A program made the translations under genes and the position numbers. A DNA stretch of 40,304 bases from Actinomycetota bacterium. Lineage in GTDB: Bacteria > Actinomycetota > AC-67. Positions within the stretch are counted from its first letter, which is position 1. Each line of letters begins with the position of its first letter. The notes below the pieces were generated by a model. The model was not told where the DNA came from and did no database searches. It worked only from the letters and a program-made list of their open reading frames with translations. The DNA is taken from assembly GCA_040905475.1 (NCBI GenBank), contig JBBDRM010000052.1, positions 1 to 40,304 on the forward strand, given 5' to 3'. This document shows, in pieces, positions 25,086-31,962 of this stretch.

Positions 25086-25123
25086 GACTATCCGGGCCGC
25101 CCTTCGGGCGGCCCGGATAGTCT
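25086..25123 (+). terminator. Strong 17-bp hairpin terminator whose 3' arm carries the chrA -10 element
   Basis: Bases 25086-25102 and 25106-25122 are perfect complements with a TTC loop closed by C-G, the cTTCGg type. It begins 15 nt after the stop of the secreted-protein gene, with only a short TCTCT after the stem, so it probably ends that transcript. The end of the 3' arm, TAGTCT (25118-25123), lies 8 nt before the ATG of the transporter gene and fits a leaderless -10. The same bases may therefore terminate one transcript and start the next. Confidence 0.75.
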
Positions 25124-28016: not shown

Positions 28017-28020
<4 letters not shown>

Positions 28021-28661
28021 CGCTTCCGGCGCGAGGGCTTCGAACGCGCGGTGCGCAGGAGCGGCGCGAGGTGCCGCTCCGCGTATCGGCGCGCCGCGGC
28101 GTCGGTTCCCAGATCGGACACCGCCGCCGGGGTGAGCAAGAACGAGGCGACGAGCCGAACGAAGATCTCTCCGATCGCCGCGACGTCGGCCTCCTCGTAG
28201 CCCGCGGCCTGCTCGCGCGTGTAGGAAACCAGGAACGCGCATGCCGCCTGGAGGAACGGCCCGCCGCGAACCGTCAGCTCGGGCAGGAGCACTTCGGGCT
28301 CGGTCGCCAGGATCCGTGTGATCAGCGGATGCGAACGCGCGGCGCGCAAGGTGACGACGAAGCCCTCGACGAGCTTGTCCTCGAGCGTCGGCAGAGGGGA
28401 GACGATCGCGTCGAACTCCTTGAGGAAGCGCGACAGCTCACGGAGCAGCAGCCCTTGGATCAGGTCGCTCTTGCGGCCGAACCGGCGGTGGACGGTGACG
28501 CGGGTGACGCCGGCGCGAACGGCGACGTCCTCGACCGTCGTCCGCCGCAAGCCGAAGTCGAGGAACTGCGCCATCGCGGCGTCGAGGATCCGCGCGGCCG
28601 TCTCATCGGCAGATGCGTGCTCGGCCGCGAGCCTGAACAGCTCCGCCGTCGTCGCGCTCAC
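28017..28661 (-). CDS. TetR-family transcriptional regulator of the MpaB-type oxygenase operon
   Basis: 214 aa from GTG 28661, which overlaps the stop of the oxygenase gene as GTGA. The N-terminal HTH is RTTVEDVAVRAGVTRVTVHR with the usual YxxFxxK-like RFGRKSDLI after it; the C-terminal half is the variable ligand domain, ending in a basic tail. Co-transcription with the oxygenase and an inverted repeat in the operon promoter (29550-29566) suggest autoregulation and a ligand related to the oxygenase substrate. Binding to that site is inference. A frame running further upstream exists but would read deep into the oxygenase gene. Confidence 0.85.
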
Positions 28662-29518
28662 GACGCGCGCGCCGCTTTCCGAGCCTTGTACGCGAGCGGG
28701 AGGTACCGCAGGCGCTCGGGGAGACGAGGCATCACCTCGGCGATCGCGCGTCCGACCCGACGGAGCTTCCGCTCGTCGTCTTCGGTCCACTCGAGGTCGA
28801 ACATCTTCCGGATGGCCGGGGGAAAGGTCCCGACCGTGATGAACCGCTGGAACGTGCCCGCCGAAAGCCCGAACGGCTTCCAGATGGCCTCCATCGCCGC
28901 CGGGAACCACTTCGGCCGCGGTGTCCGAGTCATGCGCTCGAGCACGTCGACCGCCGTCGGATGCGCCTCGAGCTTGGACGCGACCATCTCGTCGAAGTAC
29001 GCCCAGTAGTCCTCGACCGTCGGCGGCAGCGCGTGCTCCGGCACCTGCAGGATCCGGCCGAGCTGCAACACCTCCTGGTAGAGGGCGCGCTCGTCGGCCC
29101 GCTGCCCGGGCAACGTGAAGTACCGCTCGAACGTGATCCCCCGCTCGTAGGCGGTCAGGTGCACCCATGCCCACGGTTCGGGGTCGAGGGCCGAGTACGT
29201 CGTGCCCTGATCGTCGACGCCGCGGAACGCCTTATGCATCGCGCGCAGCCGTTCGCCTTCCGCGAACGATCCCTCGCCGGCGTACACCCACTTCTGGAGC
29301 GAGTCGAGGCTCCGTTCGAGCCGTCCCCACGGATCGGTCTTGTAGACGGACCGCGCGGCCACCGCGTGACCGATCGAGGGATGCATCGTCTGCATGATGA
29401 GCGCGCCGCCGAGTACGAGCAGGATCCGGCGGTCGCCGATGCTCTCCCACAAGAGCGAGCCGGGCCCGAACGGCTCCGGCGGAGCGACCGTACGCTCGTC
29501 GTGCCGAACCTCGGCCAT
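28658..29518 (-). CDS. MpaB/Lcp-type oxygenase family protein (DUF2236)
   Basis: 286 aa from the ATG at 29518, preceded by GGAGGGG. The N-terminal GPGSLLWESIGDRRILLVLG, MHPSIGHAVAARSVYKTDPWGRL and the central LRAMHKAFRGVD, WAWVHLTAYE and later YFDEM pattern are those of the DUF2236 family. It includes fungal MpaB, which cleaves an isoprenoid chain, and the heme-b rubber oxygenase Lcp. The conserved His (for example in AMHK and WVHLT) are candidates for heme or iron binding. It is shorter than Lcp and has no signal peptide, so it is probably cytoplasmic. Members beside TetR genes are common in actinobacteria; the substrate, possibly an unsaturated lipid, is unknown. Confidence 0.82.
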   Translation of the reverse strand: MAEVRHDERTVAPPEPFGPGSLLWESIGDRRILLVLGGALIMQTMHPSIGHAVAARSVYKTDPWGRLERSLDSLQKWVYAGEGSFAEGERLRAMHKAFRGVDDQGTTYSALDPEPWAWVHLTAYERGITFERYFTLPGQRADERALYQEVLQLGRILQVPEHALPPTVEDYWAYFDEMVASKLEAHPTAVDVLERMTRTPRPKWFPAAMEAIWKPFGLSAGTFQRFITVGTFPPAIRKMFDLEWTEDDERKLRRVGRAIAEVMPRLPERLRYLPLAYKARKAARAS

Positions 29519-29541
29519 CGAAACCCCTCCGTTTCGTCGGC

Positions 29542-29566
29542 GATACAAAGATACGGAAACTGTATC
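29542..29566 (-). promoter_or_regulatory. GATAC/GTATC inverted repeat in the oxygenase-TetR promoter
   Basis: GATAC (29550-29554) and GTATC (29562-29566) form an inverted repeat with a 7-nt centre, and another GATACA (29542-29547) faces the same TGTATC at longer spacing. On the minus strand these bases include the -10 candidates TACAGT (29559-29564) and TATCTT (29548-29553). The site lies 24-48 nt before the oxygenase start. It is the likely operator of the co-transcribed TetR protein; this is inference. Confidence 0.6.
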
Positions 29567-29598
29567 ACCGACTCTTTCGCACCGCCAGGCGCGTGCCG

Positions 29599-29640
29599 AA
29601 AAAAGCCGCGAGCCCGGCCTCAGACCGGCCGGGCTCGCGT
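29599..29640 (-). terminator. Rho-independent terminator for the 44-aa Cys-pair gene
   Basis: On the minus strand a 12-bp GC-rich stem, GCGAGCCCGGCC with GGCCGGGCTCGC (29608-29619 and 29627-29638), with a 7-nt loop, is followed after a few bases by six T (complement of AAAAAA, 29599-29604). It starts 15 nt after the stop of the small gene at 29653 and is one of the best textbook terminators in the window. Its presence right after such a short frame supports that the frame is a real gene with its own transcript. Confidence 0.85.
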
Positions 29641-29652
29641 CGGTTCCGATCG

Positions 29653-29787
29653 CTAGTCCGTGCAGCACTTCCCGTCGGGCGACTCTGCGCGGTGTTCCGC
29701 TGCGGTCATGCCGCCTTCGCAGCACATCTTCTCGTCCTTCTTCTCCTCGGCCTTGGGTTGCTGCTCCAACGTCTTCTGATCTGCCAT
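29653..29787 (-). CDS. Small 44-aa Cys-pair protein of unknown function
   Basis: A 45-codon frame from the ATG at 29787 to TAG at 29653. An AGGAGGAGG (29794-29802, minus strand) lies 6 nt before the start, and a rho-independent terminator follows 15 nt after the stop, so it is a monocistronic gene. The first 20 residues are almost all polar and charged (LEQQPKAEEKKDEK); two Cys pairs follow, in KMCCEGG near residues 22-23 and GKCCTD at 41-42, with a His between. A metallothionein-like, zinc or copper-binding peptide, or a RiPP precursor, are possibilities; no modification enzyme is next to it. TAGAAC (29821-29826, minus strand) is a candidate -10. I recognise no family. Confidence 0.75.
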   Translation of the reverse strand: MADQKTLEQQPKAEEKKDEKMCCEGGMTAAEHRAESPDGKCCTD

Positions 29788-29859: not shown

Positions 29860-29903
29860 TTGACCTGACGGAGCGTCAGGTGTTACAACTGACACGCGCG
29901 TCA
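29860..29903 (+). promoter_or_regulatory. Promoter of the HTH gene with two TGAC/GTCA palindromes
   Basis: TTGACC (29860-29865) and TACAAC (29884-29889) are a -35/-10 pair with an 18-nt spacer. The spacer is filled by ACCTGACG-GAG-CGTCAGGT (29863-29881), a perfect 8-bp inverted repeat. A second, imperfect palindrome, TGACACGCGCGTCA (29890-29903), covers the expected start of transcription. Both contain TGAC and GTCA half-sites. Repressor binding at either would block RNA polymerase, so the gene at 29926 is probably autoregulated or controlled by another regulator. Confidence 0.65.
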
Positions 29904-29906
29904 CAT

Positions 29907-29917
29907 CCTCCGGGAGG
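29907..29917 (+). promoter_or_regulatory. Palindromic ribosome binding site of the HTH gene
   Basis: CCTCCGGGAGG holds the Shine-Dalgarno GGGAGG (29912-29917), 8 nt before the GTG at 29926, opposite a complementary CCTCC. Only a 4-bp stem with a 3-nt loop is possible within one RNA, so any effect on translation would be mild. Confidence 0.4.
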
Positions 29918-29925
29918 CTAGTCCC

Positions 29926-30663
29926 GTGCGAGCGATCCCCATCGACAGCTTCTTCGAAGACCTTGAAGGCAAGCGCGCCGTCGCGGCCGATGAGGCCGTC
30001 AACGACGCCTCGCTCGATTGGGGCCGGATCGTCGCCGAGGGGCGCGCCGCCCGCACCACCGTCGACGGAGGCAGCTGGCGGATCGGTCGGCTCGCTCTTC
30101 TGATCGAGCGTCGTTACGCCGCCGGAGCAGTCCAGCGATTCGCCGAGGCGATCGGCGAGTCCTACGGCACCGTCCGCCGCTACCGCTGGGTCGCCAAGGC
30201 CTACGACCCGGACATCGGGCTCCGGCTCCCCGGCCTCTCTTTCTCTCATTTCCAGGCCGTGGCCGGGCTCCCCGACCGCCTCACCTGGCTGCAGCGAGCG
30301 GCGCGGGGGAACTGGAGCGTAGACCGCCTGACGCGCGAGTCCCGCGGGACCAAGCCGGCCGCGCCGCAGCGACGGAACGCGCAGGCGCTCGACCGGATGC
30401 GCTCGACGATCGGCGGGCTTCGCCGCTCGATCCCGTCCACGTCCGAGCTGGACGATGCCGCGATCGCGACGGCCGGCAAGAAGTGGCTGGCGGAAGCGCT
30501 CGACGATCTCTCCCGTGAGATCGAGGAGCTCCGTGAGCGCGTGCGGCGCGCTACCCGCGCCGTTGAAGCACGACGGCCCTTGAAGGTTGCTCGGGAACGA
30601 GGCGCCGCGGCCGCGAAGCCGCGCACGCCCACCGCGCTCAAAGCGCGCGCGATCGGACGCTAG
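29926..30663 (+). CDS. Helix-turn-helix DNA-binding protein of unknown family
   Basis: 245 aa. A putative HTH is at about residues 70-93 (QRFAEAIGESYGTVRRYRWV), followed by SFSHFQAVAGLPDRLTWLQR and then a predicted coiled region (DDLSREIEELRERVRRATRA) and a basic, Ala/Arg-rich tail ending KALKARAIGR-like. The layout (HTH, an SFSH module that recalls ParB-like or DUF3102/DUF6192-type proteins, coiled coil, basic tail) suggests a DNA-binding protein that oligomerises, but I cannot assign a family. The gene stands alone with its own promoter, two TGAC/GTCA palindromes in front and a 34-bp palindrome of the same half-sites behind. The GTG start is set by GGGAGG 8 nt upstream. Confidence 0.75.
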   Translation: MRAIPIDSFFEDLEGKRAVAADEAVNDASLDWGRIVAEGRAARTTVDGGSWRIGRLALLIERRYAAGAVQRFAEAIGESYGTVRRYRWVAKAYDPDIGLRLPGLSFSHFQAVAGLPDRLTWLQRAARGNWSVDRLTRESRGTKPAAPQRRNAQALDRMRSTIGGLRRSIPSTSELDDAAIATAGKKWLAEALDDLSREIEELRERVRRATRAVEARRPLKVARERGAAAAKPRTPTALKARAIGR

Positions 30664-30715
30664 ACCCCCGCGCGAAGGCGGGCGAGCGCCCGGGTCGCCA
30701 CCGTTCACGGAGCCC

Positions 30716-30749
30716 GGCTGACATGGCTGACATGTCAGCCATGTCAGCC
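30716..30749. repeat. Perfect 34-bp palindrome of TGACAT repeats
   Basis: Two direct GGCTGACAT units are followed by their exact reverse complement, so bases 30716-30732 and 30733-30749 are perfect mirror arms with no spacer. The centre is TGACATGTCA. It lies in the 114-nt gap between the HTH gene (plus) and the acyl-CoA dehydrogenase gene (minus), so it could end both transcripts, though no T-run follows on either side. The TGAC/GTCA half-sites match those in the HTH gene promoter, which makes a cluster of regulator binding sites the alternative. A 17-bp stem with no loop also makes cruciform extrusion possible. Confidence 0.9.
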
Positions 30750-30777
30750 ACCTACGGGATGCGCCATGCGGACGGCG

Positions 30778-31962
30778 TCAGAAGACTTCGTTCGACCCCT
30801 GCCGGTCGAGCAGGCGGGCGATCAGGTTCTTCTGGATCTCGACCGTGCCGGCGCCGATCGCCAGACCGCGGACGTCGCGGAACATCCGCTCCACCGGGAA
30901 CTCGCGCGTGTAGCCGTAGCCGCCGTGGATCTGGATCGCCTCGTTTGAAACCTCTTGGGCCACGATGTTCGCATACCACTTCGCCTTGACCACCATCATC
31001 GGGTCCGGCTCGTGGATGCCGCCGATGTGCTCGCCCGTGCTGCACGCACGCCAGACCATCAGGCGTGCCGCGTCCACCTTCGTCGCCATCTCGGCGAGCT
31101 TGTGCGCGATCGCCTGAACGTCGATCAGCCGCTTCCCCCCGACCTTGCGCTCCTGCGCGTAGCGGATCGACTCGTCGAGCGCCCCCGCCGCGACGCCGAC
31201 GCACATCGACGCGTTGCCGAGCCGCTCGTGGTTGAACTGGGCAAGGATCGTCCGCATCGCCGACCCTTTCGCATCGCCTTCGAGCAGCACGTCTGAGTCG
31301 GCGACCGGCGCATCGTCGAACGCGACCTCGGCCTCGGCCGCGCCGCGCAGCCCCATCTTCTTGTGCACCTTCGACACCGACACGCCCGGCGCGTCGGCCG
31401 GCACCATCACGGCCCCGAGCGCCTTCGAGGAGTCGTCCGCCGGGAAACGCGCCACGACGAAGAAGGCTTGCGCCTTGTGCCCGCCGGTCACCATGTTCTT
31501 GTAACCCTCGAGCCGCCAGCCGCCGTCGACGCGCCGCAGCTTCGCGCGCATCGCCATCGCGTCCGACCCGGCATCCGGTTCGGTCATGCCGATCCCGATC
31601 AGACACTCACCGCCCGCGACCTGCGGCAGGTAGCGCTCCTTCAGGTCCTCGCTGCCGAATGCCGCGATCGCGCGCGGGGGGCCGTTCAGGAAGAGCTGGC
31701 ACACGACCGCGGTCGATAGGCACACCCGACCGATCTGTTCGAGCACGAGCCCCGCTTCCAGGTCGCCGAGCCCCAGCCCGCCGTACTTCTCCGGAACGCT
31801 CAAGCCCGTGAGGCCTTGGCGCCCGAGGATCTCGAGGTTCTCGGACGGGAACTCCTCGTTCTCGTCCCAGCGGGCGGCGCGCGGACGGAACTCGCGCTCG
31901 GCGAGCTCGCGCGTCGCGCGGCGCAGCTCTCGCTGCTCGTCGGTGAGCGTGAAGTCGACCAC
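30778..31962 (-). CDS. Acyl-CoA dehydrogenase, isovaleryl/long-chain type by active-site position
   Basis: 394 aa from a GTG at 31962. The family marks are EKYGGLGLGDLEAGL, IGIGMTEPDAGSDAMAMRA (FAD-binding loop), and YEAIQIHGGYGYT-like EAIQIHGGYGYTREFP. The catalytic Glu of medium-chain enzymes, in the EGT motif near residue 376, is Ala here (IGAGTVEIQ, residue 371). A Glu is present at NHERL (E246), where isovaleryl- and long-chain dehydrogenases keep their base. It should therefore oxidise a branched or long acyl-CoA to enoyl-CoA, passing electrons to ETF. TAGGCT (31972-31977, minus strand) lies 9 nt before the GTG, so it may have its own leaderless promoter besides read-through from the upstream alcohol dehydrogenase. 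Confidence 0.88.
   Translation of the reverse strand: MVDFTLTDEQRELRRATRELAEREFRPRAARWDENEEFPSENLEILGRQGLTGLSVPEKYGGLGLGDLEAGLVLEQIGRVCLSTAVVCQLFLNGPPRAIAAFGSEDLKERYLPQVAGGECLIGIGMTEPDAGSDAMAMRAKLRRVDGGWRLEGYKNMVTGGHKAQAFFVVARFPADDSSKALGAVMVPADAPGVSVSKVHKKMGLRGAAEAEVAFDDAPVADSDVLLEGDAKGSAMRTILAQFNHERLGNASMCVGVAAGALDESIRYAQERKVGGKRLIDVQAIAHKLAEMATKVDAARLMVWRACSTGEHIGGIHEPDPMMVVKAKWYANIVAQEVSNEAIQIHGGYGYTREFPVERMFRDVRGLAIGAGTVEIQKNLIARLLDRQGSNEVF

Follow-up and report, generated by a model that had tools for sequence, protein, structure and literature searches.

A remote LmbU relative with a candidate autoregulatory operator beside a dispersed 9-bp palindromic array in an actinobacterial genome

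Regulators of the LmbU type have so far been known mainly from antibiotic clusters. LmbU, with its HTH domain in the centre, has CGCCGGCG as palindromic site and acts as a repressor of its own gene, and an N-terminal auto-inhibitory domain occurs in the homologues within antibiotic clusters and not in those outside (PMC6510168). Among dispersed elements, REPs occupy the gaps between genes in tandem or convergent order, past the ends of coding regions (PMC3733652). We compared with these systems, and with ParB, Noc and SopB, an HTH gene and the palindromes around it. The window, i.e. the whole stretch of DNA that was analysed, is an entire contig (C52) of 40,304 bp from a 4.24-Mb draft genome of 173 contigs and 97% completeness. 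In the window Rfam found two tRNAs and nothing else. The features of the locus are the following.

28017-29518, minus strand: MPAB-type oxygenase gene and TetR gene
29653-29787, minus strand: small cysteine-rich ORF
29860-29889, plus strand: putative promoter read from the sequence, TTGACC (29860-29865), 18 nt, TACAAC (29884-29889)
29863-29881, no strand: palindrome 1, ACCTGACGgagCGTCAGGT, operator-type; its core recurs before acyl-CoA metabolism genes
29890-29903, no strand: palindrome 2, TGACACGCGCGTCA, candidate autoregulatory operator; compensating changes at the orthologues, unique in the genome
29926-30663, plus strand: LmbU-like HTH regulator gene, 245 aa, GTG start; ORF with coding-type codon use, NCBIfam match and orthologues
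30019-30342, plus strand: predicted DNA-binding core (about residues 32-139), a ParB/Noc/SopB-like helical domain including the HTH and the SFSH segment; AlphaFold2 and PDB fold matches
30445-30612, plus strand: predicted C-terminal long helix or coiled coil (residues 174-229), followed by a basic tail; AlphaFold2 secondary structure at low to moderate confidence
30715-30750, no strand: four-unit 9-bp palindromic array of the TGnCnGnCA intergenic repeat family, containing a perfect 34-bp palindrome (30716-30749, palindrome 3)
30778-31962, convergent to the HTH gene: acyl-CoA dehydrogenase gene

Beyond the HTH gene follow, in order, the convergent acyl-CoA dehydrogenase, a zinc alcohol dehydrogenase and a TPP enzyme. 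Coordinates and sequence confirm the layout given in a preliminary description of this DNA, with three palindromes and the HTH gene between them, which that description had joined into one self-regulating module. In our judgement the locus is probably a chance neighbourhood of two things, an LmbU-type regulator that would bind palindrome 2 and a dispersed, genome-specific array element; three look-alike palindromes that a reading of the sequence can merge into one module are thereby told apart.

That the gene encodes a DNA-binding protein of HTH type, as proposed earlier, is borne out by an LmbU-family match and by a ParB-like predicted fold. NCBIfam NF038070 (LmbU_fam_TF) matches residues 39-159 with an E-value of 1.2e-13 and 51.3 bits (cut-off 125), and the orthologue P0001 shows the same sub-cut-off behaviour. 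BLASTP aligns the regulator at E 7e-9 with L004, a bona fide LmbU member from its phylum (198 bits), over the HTH and the SFSH/WLQRA..WS segment. The central HTH and the segment LSF-H-VA-L...W-RA--WS are what it has in common with LmbU of Streptomyces lincolnensis and its family, and the SFSH module singled out in the preliminary description corresponds to the LSFxHH segment of LmbU. Judged by sequence, the regulator is a divergent outlier or remote relative of the LmbU family which, being below the cut-off (51 bits against 125), is not filed as a member; to call it an undescribed regulator family, as was suggested, is too strong. Unlike the family, it does not lie in an evident antibiotic cluster, and its sequence contains no cysteine that could form the LmbU disulphide dimer, a coiled coil being predicted instead. 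The N-terminus is short (about 30 residues) and of low modelling confidence. A Pfam search of the regulator gave a weak HTH_58 match and nothing else, a PDB search by sequence gave weak matches only, the best of them to a designed coiled coil, and comparison with phage protein families gave nothing notable. The finding would extend LmbU-type regulators to a soil actinobacterial lineage, with the gene set amid lipid-metabolism genes.

An AlphaFold2 model of moderate quality (mean pLDDT 61.8, built on a three-sequence alignment) has a core block with pLDDT mostly of 70-89 and a dip at residues 91-100. In a Foldseek comparison with the PDB, ranks 1-22 were all ParB/Spo0J/Noc chains (E 0.011 to 0.8) and SopB stood at rank 24; the best match had an E-value of 0.011 and a probability of 1.00, and no fold match reached 0.001. 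The core is therefore predicted by the model to share the fold of the ParB/Noc/SopB DNA-binding domain. Unlike ParB, the regulator has no match to the N-terminal (CTPase) domain PF02195 at E-values up to 1, and because that domain is absent it is not a ParB. The structural comparison with ParB-like proteins that had been proposed earlier thus holds for the DNA-binding domain and not for the protein as a whole, and the suggested role in segregation is unsupported, since the ParB N-terminal domain is missing and the nearest named family is LmbU, a regulator of antibiotic clusters. The coiled coil read from the sequence reappears in the model as a long C-terminal helix of low to moderate confidence, with the basic tail after it.

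Orthologues were found in two of the approximately 200 nearest relatives, with 51% and 61% identity. Their hosts are two soil MAGs labelled 'Actinobacteria bacterium' (G003 and G004), both in the family of the host genome, and searches of genome collections with the protein or its alignment gave no further relatives beyond the same two soil MAG contigs. From these labels the host is taken to be an actinobacterium whose family is otherwise thinly sampled. The C-terminus is shorter in the orthologue than in the regulator. The orthologue in G003 is truncated by the contig end, and the region behind the gene is readable in G004 only.

The regulator gene has the Shine-Dalgarno sequence GGGAGG (29912-29917). 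A strict consensus promoter scan did not flag 29860-29889, and we infer a promoter there. Palindrome 2 lies just downstream of its putative -10 element and consists of outer TGAC/GTCA half-sites plus CGCG, with one mismatched pair type. At the same place both orthologue promoters carry TGACGCCCGTGTCA, with compensating changes at mirrored positions, and a comparison of ACTGACGCCCGTGTCACATC in the orthologue promoters with ACTGACACGCGCGTCACATC here shows that the half-sites are kept and the inner bases differ; as the two orthologue promoters are nearly identical, this conservation amounts to essentially one independent comparison. In its own genome palindrome 2 has no other copy at up to one mismatch, and at up to two mismatches the matches do not exceed the control. 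A unique, conserved palindrome by the -10 element of a regulator gene has the classical look of an autoregulatory operator, and palindrome 2 is, as far as sequence goes, the best candidate for the self-regulation site. Most likely the regulator would bind it and repress its own transcription, as LmbU does with its own gene. The LmbU site CGCCGGCG is not present in the regulator promoter. In this respect the proposal of a self-regulating module survives for palindrome 2, which is kept with compensating changes at two orthologues, while palindromes 1 and 3 are separate.

Palindrome 1 is built of the arms ACCTGACG and CGTCAGGT (8 bp each) around the 3-nt spacer gag. Its core CTGACGnnnCGTCAG is present in 11 copies in the genome versus none in the reversed control, in 3-5 copies in G003 and G004 and in 15 copies in one distant 9.2-Mb genome (G026). 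The ten other copies in the own genome lie mostly just upstream of acyl-CoA metabolism genes, which comprise three acyl-CoA dehydrogenases, an enoyl-CoA hydratase, acyl-CoA ligases, a thiolase, an OB-fold partner and similar genes, the names being read off the sequences without a family search. These copies conform to (A/T)TCTGACGnnnCGTCAGA(A/T) and are located as follows.

C58:31140, 34425 and 37889: operator family, own genome
C85:53740, 56276, 92652 and 114393: operator family, own genome
C98:13086, C122:14366 and C144:17873: operator family, own genome

By sequence this operator family probably marks a conserved lipid-catabolism regulon, for which we suspect a regulator of TetR type. Palindrome 1 shares the core with these operators and differs from them in its outer bases, ACC...GGT versus the usual (A/T)TC...GA(A/T), i.e. 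C for T. Its sequence is not kept at the orthologues, whose promoters carry a different inverted repeat, AGTGTTAAGTagcACTTAACACT. Because the core recurs before acyl-CoA metabolism genes, palindrome 1 probably belongs to another regulator, and the earlier view of it as the protein's own site is not supported; most likely it is an operator of a lipid-metabolism regulator that acts on the HTH gene. Situated in the spacer between the -35 and -10 elements, it would be bound by the factor that controls acyl-CoA metabolism genes via ATCTGACGnnnCGTCAGAT-type operators, and with its deviating outer bases it may belong to yet another factor.

Palindrome 3 is GGCTGACATGGCTGACATGTCAGCCATGTCAGCC, with zero spacer. 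The array that contains it consists of the units CGGCTGACA, TGGCTGACA, TGTCAGCCA and TGTCAGCCA and lies 51 bp past the regulator stop and 27 bp past the stop of the acyl-CoA dehydrogenase gene; since it is situated between two convergent genes, it is equally "behind" the latter. In 0.69 Mb of the genome no zero-spacer palindrome is longer than palindrome 3 and only one other is as long, a length far beyond chance; that other one repeats its sequence elsewhere in the genome, an indication of a dispersed repeat and not of a site that goes with this gene. Genome-wide, TGGCTGACATGTCAGCCA occurs in exactly five copies and CTGACATGTCAG in 13, the latter versus 0-1 in 60 relatives. The skeleton TGNCNGNCATGNCNGNCA has 41 matches in the genome and none in the reversed control; unit positions 2, 4, 6 and 8 are part of the search pattern, so that their invariance is partly due to selection, and the n positions are free. 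Each other relative has 0-7 matches to it, mostly of a GC-rich chance type, and many have control matches too. With a stricter W-centred skeleton, 40 matches were obtained here, whereas each of 396 further genomes from the phylum had 0-2. Once merged, the matches make up 30 arrays of 2-7 units and 18-63 bp, or 29 if one GC-rich chance match is left out; the main units are TGACAGACA, TGGCTGACA, TGCCTGACA, TGTCAGACA and CGTCTGACA or their complements. Two exact array sequences were searched in viral contigs and not found there, and a literature search for array sequences found no record. The family is apparently undescribed and expanded in this genome only among those searched, and we consider this REP-like family a more interesting find than the module idea. 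No close same-genus relative was among the genomes searched, which bears on the age and mobility of the arrays.

Several further matches came up in these searches. Array-like matches in G003 and G004 were rejected, as they share a conserved flank that reads as coding DNA and are not palindromic, and a match at G000:C56 was rejected as chance, being GC-rich and not palindromic. Three genomes of one other family (G376, G368 and G286) share a single palindrome, TGACTGACATGTCAGTCA, possibly an operator, and have no expanded array family. Another 9-bp array (L071:13126-13152) lies 31 bp behind the gene L071:13184-14014, which encodes a protein with the ParB N-terminal domain (PF02195).

The only feature common to all three palindromes is the TGAC/GTCA tetramer, which the array unit has for itself and the two operator-like palindromes have independently of it. 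The regulator might in principle bind TGAC...GTCA sites both in its promoter and in the array, so that the approximately 29 arrays would be the genome-wide sites of a nucleoid-organising or segregation-type protein. The tetramer in all three palindromes, the ParB-like DNA-binding fold and the spread of the arrays over the chromosome without sense-strand bias, as expected of a DNA-level element, are consistent with this idea. We nevertheless regard it as very unlikely: the unit TGnCnGnCA is present in neither promoter palindrome, the genomes G003 and G004 have no arrays above background and none behind the readable orthologue, the arrays stand behind stop codons and not at promoters, and their n bases vary between arrays and are complementary within them, which argues for pairing and not for recognition by one protein. 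That the downstream palindrome belongs to the module to which it had been assigned is not supported; it is a dispersed repeat by unrelated genes. The preliminary description had suggested counting such palindromes and held that sites unique and not conserved would speak against its idea. The count is approximately 29 arrays for the downstream type, which is a separate element, and 11 copies for the core of palindrome 1, and the outcome is mixed, since palindrome 3 is not unique, palindrome 1 is shared and palindrome 2 is unique yet conserved at the orthologues.

The information in an array sits in its free n positions, which are complementary between the left and the right arm, and the summed folding energy of the arrays is -485.8 kcal/mol versus -404.9 +/- 27.0 with units randomly flipped and reordered and -331.0 +/- 17.7 with n bases redrawn. 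The eight flanking bases on each side pair at 111 of 232 positions, whereas shuffling the letters gives 70.8 +/- 6.7 and swapping the partners 94.9 +/- 6.5. Because arms and flanks pair, each array amounts to an extended hairpin with the structure ..GGAG-(units)-(complement units)-CTCC.., and its sequence is free to change so long as pairing persists. We propose that the array is a dispersed extragenic palindrome with 9-bp units TGnCnGnCA head to head and complementary GGAG/CTCC-type flanks, which would have multiplied in this lineage and would occupy, like a REP, the space behind stop codons, where as a hairpin at the 3' end it would have no effect or a slight benefit.

The arrays are placed in the manner of REPs. 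All 30 are outside predicted genes, apart from an overlap with a stop codon in one or two cases, and for 22 of them a stop codon is no more than 60 bp away. The distance behind the stop is mostly 15-55 bp. Using a simple codon-usage gene caller trained on the window for stretches outside it, we counted 19 tandem, 7 convergent and 4 divergent array gaps, whereas the full set of gaps no shorter than 90 bp divides 119:18:58. The genes next to the arrays bear no relation to each other (hisB, dnaK, uppS, folE, Ku, cyclophilin, thiolase, NDH-2, MFS and others); since the arrays stand behind and not before functionally unrelated genes, the regulon of one transcription factor was rejected as an explanation. 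Possible uses of the arrays include transcription end, protection of mRNA ends and a barrier between convergent genes. It is conceivable, if somewhat doubtful, that they are the lineage's bidirectional terminators, independent of a U-tract, with the sequence shared via gene conversion or copying: they are concentrated behind stops and in convergent gaps (7/30 versus 18/195) and form strong hairpins of up to -69 kcal/mol with flanks. However, several arrays have no predicted stop near them, a terminator scan did not flag the array, and unlike Rho-independent terminators the array hairpins have no T-rich tract on either side (mean 1.6, maximum 4 T in 10 nt), yet a canonical terminator with TTTTTT stands nearby on the minus strand (29607-29639), after the cysteine-rich ORF. 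In the 18 tandem cases there is no sense-strand G-U excess (30 versus 28) and no strand-wise stability bias, the sense strand being more stable in 8 and less stable in 9. With neither a T-run nor a G-U excess on the transcribed strand, a function at the RNA level is no more than a possibility, and because there is no strand bias selection for pairing could have acted on the DNA just as on the RNA. The variable yet complementary n positions make it directly testable whether a transcript hairpin or a DNA structure is at work.

The dispersed array resembles the REPs of the GTAG and CGTC super-families in being short, intergenic, located behind genes in tandem and convergent gaps and expanded in one lineage (PMC3733652). 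REPs measure 20-40 bp and have many copies, whereas the copy number here is low for a REP (29-30 arrays, 18-63 bp), and the arrays are modular (9-bp units, 2-7 copies), with a zero-spacer centre and n bases that are variable but mutually complementary. Their REP-like placement (PMC3733652) and lineage-specific expansion would also fit a mobile element of REP/REPIN type moved by a RAYT-like transposase. We find this quite unlikely, as the arrays vary in unit number and sequence, have no fixed ends and lack the unpaired GTAG tag, their flanks being GGAG/CTCC-like and mutually complementary and CGTC occurring only inside the T-type unit. A RAYT-type Y1 transposase (PF01797) was not found in the genome by a search that matches 5 of 14 control genomes, although in a draft of 173 contigs and 97% completeness a transposase could have been missed. 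It is also possible, but unlikely, that the arrays constitute a new class of extragenic palindromes with a self-complementary TGnCnGnCA skeleton and varying, complementary n bases, which would grow by addition of units and not by transposition within one actinobacterial lineage and serve as DNA-level boundaries, cruciform or protein-bound, behind genes.

Other structures were seen in the window. An inverted repeat at 25086-25122 with 17-bp arms and a 3-nt spacer (GACTATCCGGGCCGCCC/GGGCGGCCCGGATAGTC) lies between two plus-strand genes and forms a strong intergenic hairpin with no T-run behind it. The cysteine-rich ORF on the minus strand (MADQKTLEQQPKAEEKKDEKMCCEGGMTAAEHRAESPDGKCCTD; 29653-29787) is divergent from the HTH gene and has no family assignment. 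Ahead of the MPAB oxygenase-TetR gene pair lies the inverted repeat GTCGGCGATACA...TGTATCACCGAC (29536-29572), which is likely the operator of the TetR protein (28017-28661).
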